A stretch of DNA of 54,498 nt from Bacillota bacterium (GTDB lineage Bacteria > Armatimonadota > HRBIN16): the NCBI GenBank assembly GCA_023511455.1, contig JAIMBJ010000024.1:1-54498 (forward strand), in the 5' to 3' direction. The notes beneath the pieces are model-generated. The model made no database searches, was not told the DNA's origin, and saw nothing but the letters and a program-made list of their open reading frames with translations. The position numbers and the translations under genes are program-made. Within the stretch, counting starts at the first letter, position 1. Every line of letters starts with the position of its first letter. Of this stretch, positions 39,951 to 41,375 are shown piece after piece.

Positions 39951-41375
39951 TTACCAGTCCCCAATCAGCGCGGCGAGCACCGCCTTCTGCGCGTGCAGGC
40001 GGTTTTCTGCCTGGTCAAACACCACCGACTGCGCTCCGTCTATCACCTCATCGGTAATCTCCTCGCCGCGGTGCGCGGGCAGGCAGTGCATCACCATCGC
40101 GCCCGGCTTCGCCGCCTTCAGCAGGTCGGCATTCACCTGATACGGCATGAACACCTGCTTGCGCTGTTCCGCCTCATGTTCCTGTCCCATGCTCGCCCAC
40201 ACGTCGGTATAGATGGCGTCGGCGGTGCGTACTGCCTCCTTCGGGTCGCGCATTACTGTGATCAACGCGCCAGTAGCGGCGGCGATTTCCCGCGCCAGAT
40301 TCAGGATGTGCGCGTTCGGCTCGTAGCCTTCGGGGCAGGCGATGGTGAAATGCGTTCCCAGCTTCGCCGCCAGCAGCATCAGGCTGTGCGCCACATTGTT
40401 GCCATCACCCACGAACACCAGATGCTTGCCCTTCGCCTCGCCCTTATGCTCGATCAGCGTCTGGAAGTCGGCTAGCGCCTGACAGGGGTGTTCGAGGTCG
40501 CTGAGGGCGTTGATGACGGGAACCTTTGCGTTCTCCGCGAGCTCTATCAGTGTCTGGTGTGCGAACACACGCGCCATGATAGCCTGACACCACCGCTCCA
40601 GATTGCGCGCCACATCCGCCACGCTCTCGCGCTTGCCCAGCCCGATTTCGTTGGGCGAGAGATAGATGGCGTGTCCTCCCAGCTGCACCATCGCCGCTTC
40701 AAAGGTGAAGCGGGTGCGCAGGGACGGTTTTTCGAAAATCATCGCCAGCAGATGGGGACGCTTCCAGCGAATCACCTCTCCACCCACGCGTGTGGTCTGC
40801 TTCATCTCCGCCGCCAGCTGCAGCACGGCGATGCACTCTTCGGAGGTGAGGTCGTTGATGCCGATCAGGTCGCGCCCGTGCAAGCCGCGCAGCACGTCTG
40901 TCCGCGACACGGTGACCTGTGCAGAAGGTAAAGTCTCTCCCTGTCTCAGCGCTTTGATGGCGATGCGCGTGCGCTCGAGGTCTATTCCCTTTGCTTTCAG
41001 TATCTGCCCTGCCAGCCCCTCTGCTTCGCGGATGAGCCCCAGCAACAGGTGCTCCGTGCCGATGTAGTGGTCGTTGAAGTGACGCGCTTCTTCGTACGCA
41101 AGGTCAATCACGCGCTTGGCGCGCGGGGTGAGCTGCGTTTCGTGACCCACCTTGCTCGGTCCGAGCGTCACCCGCTTCTCCACCTCGATGCGCAACTGCG
41201 AGAGGCTGACACCCAGCTGCTCGAGAACGCGCGCTGCCGCGGATTCCGCATCCCGCGTCAATGCCAGCAACAGGTGTTCGGTGCTCACGAAGGTCTCGCC
41301 AAGGCGTAACGCCTCTTCCTGCGCATAGAAGATGACCCTGCGTGCGCCCTCACTGAATCGTGCCCACATAGGCAT
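39951..41375 (-). CDS. argF: Clp N-terminal domain fused to ornithine carbamoyltransferase
   Basis: A 474-residue single frame. Residues 1-147 are a full Clp N-domain with two repeats (RFSEGARRVIFYAQEEALRL, STEHLLLALTRDAES; then LTPRAKRVIDLAYEEARHF, GTEHLLLGLIREAEG), as in ClpC. Residues 165-474 are a complete OTC, which makes citrulline from ornithine and carbamoyl phosphate: FEKPSLRTRFTFE (carbamoyl-phosphate loop), HPCQALADF, and HCLPAHRGEE. Both parts keep normal length. The residues homologous to B. subtilis ClpC E32, T81 and E106 (phosphoarginine contacts, from memory) are E33, T83 and E108. GAGGTGA precedes the ATG. It may be regulated by, or delivered to, a Clp protease. Confidence 0.95.
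   Translation of the reverse strand: MPMWARFSEGARRVIFYAQEEALRLGETFVSTEHLLLALTRDAESAAARVLEQLGVSLSQLRIEVEKRVTLGPSKVGHETQLTPRAKRVIDLAYEEARHFNDHYIGTEHLLLGLIREAEGLAGQILKAKGIDLERTRIAIKALRQGETLPSAQVTVSRTDVLRGLHGRDLIGINDLTSEECIAVLQLAAEMKQTTRVGGEVIRWKRPHLLAMIFEKPSLRTRFTFEAAMVQLGGHAIYLSPNEIGLGKRESVADVARNLERWCQAIMARVFAHQTLIELAENAKVPVINALSDLEHPCQALADFQTLIEHKGEAKGKHLVFVGDGNNVAHSLMLLAAKLGTHFTIACPEGYEPNAHILNLAREIAAATGALITVMRDPKEAVRTADAIYTDVWASMGQEHEAEQRKQVFMPYQVNADLLKAAKPGAMVMHCLPAHRGEEITDEVIDGAQSVVFDQAENRLHAQKAVLAALIGDW

Follow-up and report, generated by a model that had tools for sequence, protein, structure and literature searches.

Why would an enzyme of arginine synthesis, the one that forms citrulline, carry the domain by which a Clp unfoldase recognises its partners? 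The question is raised by an open reading frame in the stretch of DNA analysed here (the window, 54,498 nucleotides), which corresponds to contig C24 of a genome of 3.85 Mb (99% complete) that lies near 'Bacterium HR16' and further MAGs carrying the label Armatimonadetes/Chthonomonadia. A first-pass annotation had described a Clp N-domain (ClpN) and an ornithine carbamoyltransferase (OTC) in one uninterrupted frame, behind one promoter and one Shine-Dalgarno sequence. The exact ORF and its domains are given in Table 1; it lies on the minus strand, where the annotation had given none, and the frame is intact in relatives of the same genus. Both signals could be located in the window, a single promoter-like site and a single Shine-Dalgarno sequence, each ahead of the ClpN start, and the TACAAT element is found upstream in all eight genus members (8/8). 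An internal start yielding free OTC was rejected, as the sole candidate at the junction, a GTG (V156), is absent in the genus relatives. The fusion ORF and the family 2 glycosyltransferase gene are probably co-transcribed. The window also holds, at 41497-44079 on the minus strand, an 860-aa ORF that joins an SBP_bac_1 solute-binding protein and a BPD_transp_1 ABC permease.

Table 1. Features of the ClpN-OTC locus, in positions of the window
Feature	Position	Strand	Basis or remark
ClpN-OTC fusion ORF, 474 aa	39951..41375	minus	ATG at 41375, TAA at 39953-39951
ClpC-type N-terminal domain, residues 1-147, two Clp_N half-repeats	40935..41375	minus	Pfam, PDB matches, pLDDT mostly 85-95
Linker, residues 148-164	40884..40934	minus	low confidence at about 145-160; blocks with pLDDT 74 and 58
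Complete ornithine carbamoyltransferase, residues 165-474	39954..40883	minus	TIGR00658, motifs, 1a1s TMt 0.95
Shine-Dalgarno GAGGTG	41383..41388	minus	only ribosome-binding site with genus-conserved start
Predicted sigma-70-like promoter TTGCAC-N18-TACAAT	41407..41436	minus	consensus match and conservation
Family 2 glycosyltransferase, outside fusion	39055..39948	minus	starts 2 nt past OTC stop

Both parts of the protein are complete members of known families. Pfam finds two Clp_N half-repeats (E 5e-31), covering the full ClpC-type domain, followed by OTCace_N at residues 168-309 (3e-44) and OTCace at 315-469 (7e-63). The ORF scores 438.9 bits with the NCBIfam model PRK00779 (cut-off 306) and 401.9 bits with the TIGR00658 equivalog (cut-off 280.85), of which positions 1-303 of 304 are covered; the OTC is thus full-length, above the curated cut-off and equipped with the family motifs S-x-R-T-R, HPxQ, D-x-x-x-SMG and HCLP, here as SLRTR, HPCQ, DVWASMG and HCLP. 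Residues 3-140 match ClpC N-domain crystal structures at about 1e-33 to 1e-35 (chloroplast ClpC1 5GUI best at 2.5e-35, B. subtilis ClpC 5HBN at 1.5e-33, and Mycobacterium ClpC1 3WDB), all of which have the same full two-repeat fold, and each half aligns end to end with its crystal structures, the OTC part with that of P. furiosus OTC. In the tree the fused ClpN domains fall with the ClpC group and nest among Armatimonadota ClpC N-domains, ClpB being separate at 98 to 100/99. Pfam and NCBIfam profiles detect no AAA domain in the ORF, which lacks the AAA+ modules of a Clp/Hsp100 unfoldase. An AlphaFold model made from 62 locus-derived sequences (mean pLDDT 91.8, pTM 0.69) drops below a pLDDT of 50 only at residues 150-155, and Foldseek lays its OTC part onto OTC structures such as 1A1S; according to this model, a flexible joint connects two folded domains.

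In a profile search of the host genome, the fusion ORF is the sole OTC above the family cut-off; a second carbamoyltransferase match, at 157.8 bits, lies under that cut-off and is probably the ATCase. The genome is an arginine-synthesising one and also has argG. ClpN occurs in just three host proteins, namely the fusion, ClpC and a ClpB-like ORF located where a contig ends, indicating that the domain is not spread over many proteins in this genus. The host ClpC is encoded by a separate gene (G000:C39), and its N-domain is 62% identical to the fused ClpN.

The architecture recurs well beyond this genome. In a sample of OTC loci with their flanks from 89 Armatimonadota genomes, which is tilted to the best-scoring OTCs, ClpN and OTC share one frame in 35 of the 89 loci and in 11 of 31 families (f1, f3, f5, f6, f13, f17, f18, f22, f24, f38 and f39). 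The fused loci include eight same-genus assemblies, as well as genome G077, whose ClpN is broken by a frame change and which is counted in the 35. As so many loci and families carry the fusion, and the frame is intact in genus relatives and in independent genomes and families, misassembly is excluded, and so are a frameshift and chance. Across the fusions read, the motifs SLRT(R/K), HPCQ, D-x-x-x-SMG and HC(L/Q)P are kept, one HCLP column being cut by a contig end. Most fusions have one ClpN copy, those of f3 have two and that of G028 has three; f5 and G074 have an additional ClpN ORF upstream of the fusion. In G074 and G076, ClpN and OTC are separated by a segment that matches the N-terminal part of T2SSE, GspE-like (L163 3435-5345 minus in G076; L167 3700-5574 minus in G074). 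In most families other than f1, argD, argG or argH adjoins the OTC gene.

Homologues in which the two parts are separate genes, which would have spoken against the fusion, do exist: in f2 an unfused OTC is directly preceded by an ORF of one or two ClpN domains. The fused frames stand regardless, and the f2 arrangement suggests that ClpN and OTC are functionally linked. In two f2 genomes a double-ClpN ORF and the OTC ORF share a reading frame that is interrupted by a single stop codon (L027 364-2466 plus in G010; L028 316-2532 plus in G024). OTC has a second, different N-terminal partner in the phylum, since ArgD (acetylornithine aminotransferase) is fused to it in frame in f12 and part of f13 (L223 2698-4809 plus, L225 3775-6372 minus, L221 1288-3498 plus, L222 972-3182 minus).

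Outside the phylum, about 1,000 genomes of three phyla were sampled, two phyla only at a strict cut-off. No full-length match to the fusion was found in 400 Chloroflexota or 299 Bacillota genomes, and 294 Planctomycetota genomes gave nothing at E 1e-108, a strict cut-off without positive control, which suggests but does not prove that the fusion is absent outside Armatimonadota. A Bacillus fusion (L112) suggested by the span of a match turned out to be an OTC and then a separate ORF with a Clp_N domain.

How often did the fusion arise? The OTC tree requires at least 12 switches between fused and unfused, at least 5 of which are forced by well-supported branches. In the ClpN tree (57 domains, with a short alignment and long branches that weaken it), the AU test rejects a single clade for the fused ClpN domains (p=0.0097, dlnL 45.6), so that one ancient fusion followed by losses does not hold for the ClpN part. 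The ClpN of G076, a member of f22, falls together with f22 ClpC N-domains (support 99/91), and that of G028 with the ClpC of G028 (98/44). Since a single origin is rejected, it is probable that the ClpC N-domain of the host was captured repeatedly; gene conversion from clpC is an alternative. Within the genus the ClpN part is under purifying selection, with dN/dS of 0.14-0.41 at high dS, and values for OTC are 0.04-0.13. The ClpC N-domains of the same genus are nearly identical and the fused ClpN evolves far faster, indicating a weaker constraint than in ClpC. Moreover, half of f17 and most of f24 are close relatives without the fusion, which is therefore dispensable.

The ClpC N-domain binds adaptors, phosphoarginine (pArg) substrates and the M and AAA1 domains of ClpC (PMC12583610). 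The same work assigns T7 to the pArg1 site. Both R9 and R122 are placed at the pArg pockets or close to them, R9 forms a salt bridge with the neighbouring M-domain, K85 bridges AAA1, and E32A/E106A alters pArg handling (PMC12583610). Compared with B. subtilis ClpC, whose reference sequence, like that of McsB, agrees with the PDB sequence, the window protein has S, G, E, T, K, E and Q at the equivalents of T7, R9, E32, T81, K85, E106 and R122. The first-pass annotation had regarded the pocket residues as retained; this is true of E32, T81 and E106 (its E33, T83 and E108) and also of K85, but R9 and R122 are lost, replaced by Gly and Gln, and the window protein thus lacks the full set of seven residues of a pArg receptor. 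Among the 35 primary fused copies, T7 (or Ser) is kept in 34, E32 in 33, T81 (or Ser) in 34, K85 (or Arg) in 34 and E106 in 33, R9 is Arg or Lys in 21 and R122 in 19. The full set of seven is present in 11 of the 35 fusions versus 22 of 24 ClpC, and the ClpN of G002 has it complete. The ClpB proteins of the same genomes keep T7, E32 and E106 almost always, and the T81 equivalent as well. Thus E32, T81 and E106 are hallmarks of the fold, and conserved E32 and E106 cannot serve as proof of pArg binding.

Genes like that of the arginine kinase McsB were found in 169 of 291 Armatimonadota genomes searched, including the host, where the gene lies directly upstream of clpC (L148 9544-11013 minus, C39), as it does in genus relatives. 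The protein of the genus is longer, with 472-495 aa, and has Cys-pair motifs ahead of the kinase domain, which is all that Pfam marks; in our own reading, these motifs would resemble McsA. The catalytic Cys (C167 in B. subtilis) is Ser in 6/6 genus members read, the substitution carried by the kinase-inactive B. subtilis allele mcsB C167S (PMC7235348). Elsewhere this position is Ser, His or Asp in nearly all the proteins read, with Cys only in f4, f27 and f28. Of the 35 fused genomes 30 have McsB, compared with 28 of the 54 unfused ones (Fisher p=0.0013), but the association is not significant in phylogenetically independent pairs, and McsB was not detected in the fused or linked genomes of f2, f6, f18 and f38, some of which are incomplete. 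As the co-occurrence fails phylogenetic correction and the genus McsB lacks the catalytic Cys, it is no proof of pArg sensing.

ClpN is also found on other proteins of the phylum, being fused to a NadC-type QPRTase (L229 1477-2970 minus, G025), a PTPS/QueD-type enzyme (L231 1307-2302 minus, G016), an L-PSP/RidA-type protein (L233 2056-3240 minus, G031) and, with the partner on the C-terminal side, a GGDEF domain (L232 2556-3785 minus, G037). In G019 it sits on an OTC-like domain in which none of the four catalytic motifs is left (L228 1199-2668 plus, G019:C156), in a genome that has a separate intact OTC; the fused copy could be a regulatory pseudoenzyme subunit. OTC and RidA are trimers, PTPS/QueD are hexamers, and NadC forms dimers or hexamers, so the partners tend to threefold symmetry, a remark made post hoc on four cases. 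ORFs with ClpN only, of about 190-240 aa, lie directly upstream of clpC in L241 (G012), L245 (G015), L246 (G029) and L247 (G054), and they are possibly ClpC2-like proteins.

Each half of the fusion has well-known counterparts. Anabolic ArgF (P. furiosus 1A1S/1PVV, B. anthracis 4NF2) shares the catalytic region, the motifs, the fold and the TIGR00658 equivalog, but known OTCs begin at the equivalent of residue about 165, without ClpN. In comparison with the ClpC N-domain, the window ClpN stands off the AAA+ ring, on a metabolic enzyme, is fast-evolving and has lost R9 and R122. Mycobacterial ClpC2 is, like the fusion, a ClpC N-domain homologue outside the unfoldase, and it binds N-domain ligands (PMC10030653); however, ClpC2 is a sponge that regulates itself, binds DNA and has a dimerising N-terminal region of its own, whereas the partner here is OTC. 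In the vWA-MoxR-FtsH conflict systems ClpN repeats likewise occur on a non-Clp vWA protein (PMC7159879), but those fusions are rare variants in defence-like operons and their partner is not a metabolic enzyme. The annotation knew of no described protein with this plan, and we found no published account of a ClpN-OTC protein in the open-licence literature. As far as searched, both domains are known, while their combination, its recurrence and the metabolic partner set are new.

What, then, could ClpN do on OTC? It is natural to infer a link with the ClpC network, and the reading that we favour, although tentatively and at somewhat less than even confidence, is that ClpN is a portable docking module tying an anabolic OTC, predicted from its sequence to be active, to that network. 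From two folded domains under selection onwards, we infer each step. OTC trimers would display three ClpN domains on flexible linkers; these would engage whatever the ClpC N-domain normally binds, be it ClpC, a McsA/McsB-like adaptor or tagged clients; and arginine synthesis would be placed under the ClpC quality-control network, with a partner from it setting the stability, location or activity of OTC. The most likely route would be that OTC turnover or sequestration is set under stress or starvation. Consistent with docking are the recurrence and repeated origins of the fusion, the purifying selection on ClpN, the f2 arrangement, the known partners of the ClpC N-domain, the retention of T7, E32, T81, K85 and E106, the disordered linker and the intact active-site motifs, together with the status of the enzyme as sole OTC alongside argG, the neighbouring arg genes and the presence of ClpN on NadC, PTPS, RidA, GGDEF and a dead OTC. 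Against it stand the loss of R9 and R122 (roughly half of the fusions lack R9, a similar share R122, and the window protein lacks both), the weaker constraint on ClpN than on the ClpC N-domain and the dispensability of the fusion in relatives. No published report of OTC as a Clp client was found in the open-licence literature.

The same data can be read in other ways. ClpN might be a structural appendage that aids the folding, solubility or trimer or higher-oligomer assembly of OTC with no link to ClpC partners, which we consider rather unlikely, though it fits a purifying selection that is nevertheless relaxed relative to ClpC, the frequent loss of the partner-facing R9 and R122, the flexible linker and the occurrence of ClpN on unrelated enzymes. 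It does not account for the recruitment of the same domain time after time, rather than assorted ones, nor for the near-invariance of T7, K85, E32 and E106 (although E32 and E106 may be structural), and a fixed interdomain contact is not predicted at a pTM of 0.69. It is improbable that ClpN is a sensor, as first suggested, which would bind pArg-proteins or free phosphoarginine and tune arginine synthesis to the arginine-phosphorylation (stress) state. The glutamates and threonines of pArg1/pArg2 kept in nearly all primary copies, the McsB homologue adjoining clpC in the host and the higher frequency of McsB in fused genomes would agree with such a role, but the persistence of these residues in ClpB, the R9 and R122 losses, the Ser of the genus McsB, the families where McsB was not detected and the association that vanishes in independent pairs leave the phosphoarginine reading weak.

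A nearly neutral fusion, in which ClpN ORFs between argD and argF were fused through stop-codon loss and persist functionless, is also improbable, and slightly more so: in f2, f5 and f22 a ClpN ORF immediately precedes OTC, which offers a ready path to fusion, and the spread in f17 and f24 is patchy, but the dN/dS values of ClpN in the genus at high dS, a fold intact in deep families, the several origins and the parallel fusions to other enzymes are not expected of it. We give the least credence to a decoy or sponge, in which enzyme-borne ClpN would capture toxins, peptides or phage proteins directed against the ClpC N-domain, as ClpC2 does against cyclomarin A (PMC10030653). Fast evolution of ClpN, repeated capture and extra tandem copies would fit an arms race, but no ligand of such type is known for the phylum and dN/dS is well below 1; in addition, several lineages have ClpN-only ORFs, a simpler sponge, so that the enzyme carrier would go unexplained.

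The docking reading may be extended, although we regard the extension as rather doubtful, to a more general role of Armatimonadota ClpN domains: plugged into symmetric metabolic enzymes, primarily OTC but also NadC, PTPS/QueD and RidA-like proteins, they would act as control modules. A multivalent ClpN enzyme would dock ClpC or its adaptors, enzyme level or activity and protease activity would control each other, and the circuit would have been built via repeated domain capture.

Recognition domains of unfoldases are usually studied within the unfoldase; here one has moved, apparently repeatedly, onto a central biosynthetic enzyme and is under selection there. BacPROTACs, the comparison for proximity-based control, are small molecules; if ClpN docks OTC to ClpC or adaptors, the fusion would be a natural, genetically encoded equivalent of enzyme control by protease proximity. 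It would then also give a handle on the coupling of amino-acid synthesis and proteostasis in a phylum that has hardly been studied by experiment. Were it a mere stabiliser, the ClpN fold would still be a reusable accessory domain. In the little-studied Armatimonadota, the fusion may couple the making of arginine to the quality control of proteins.
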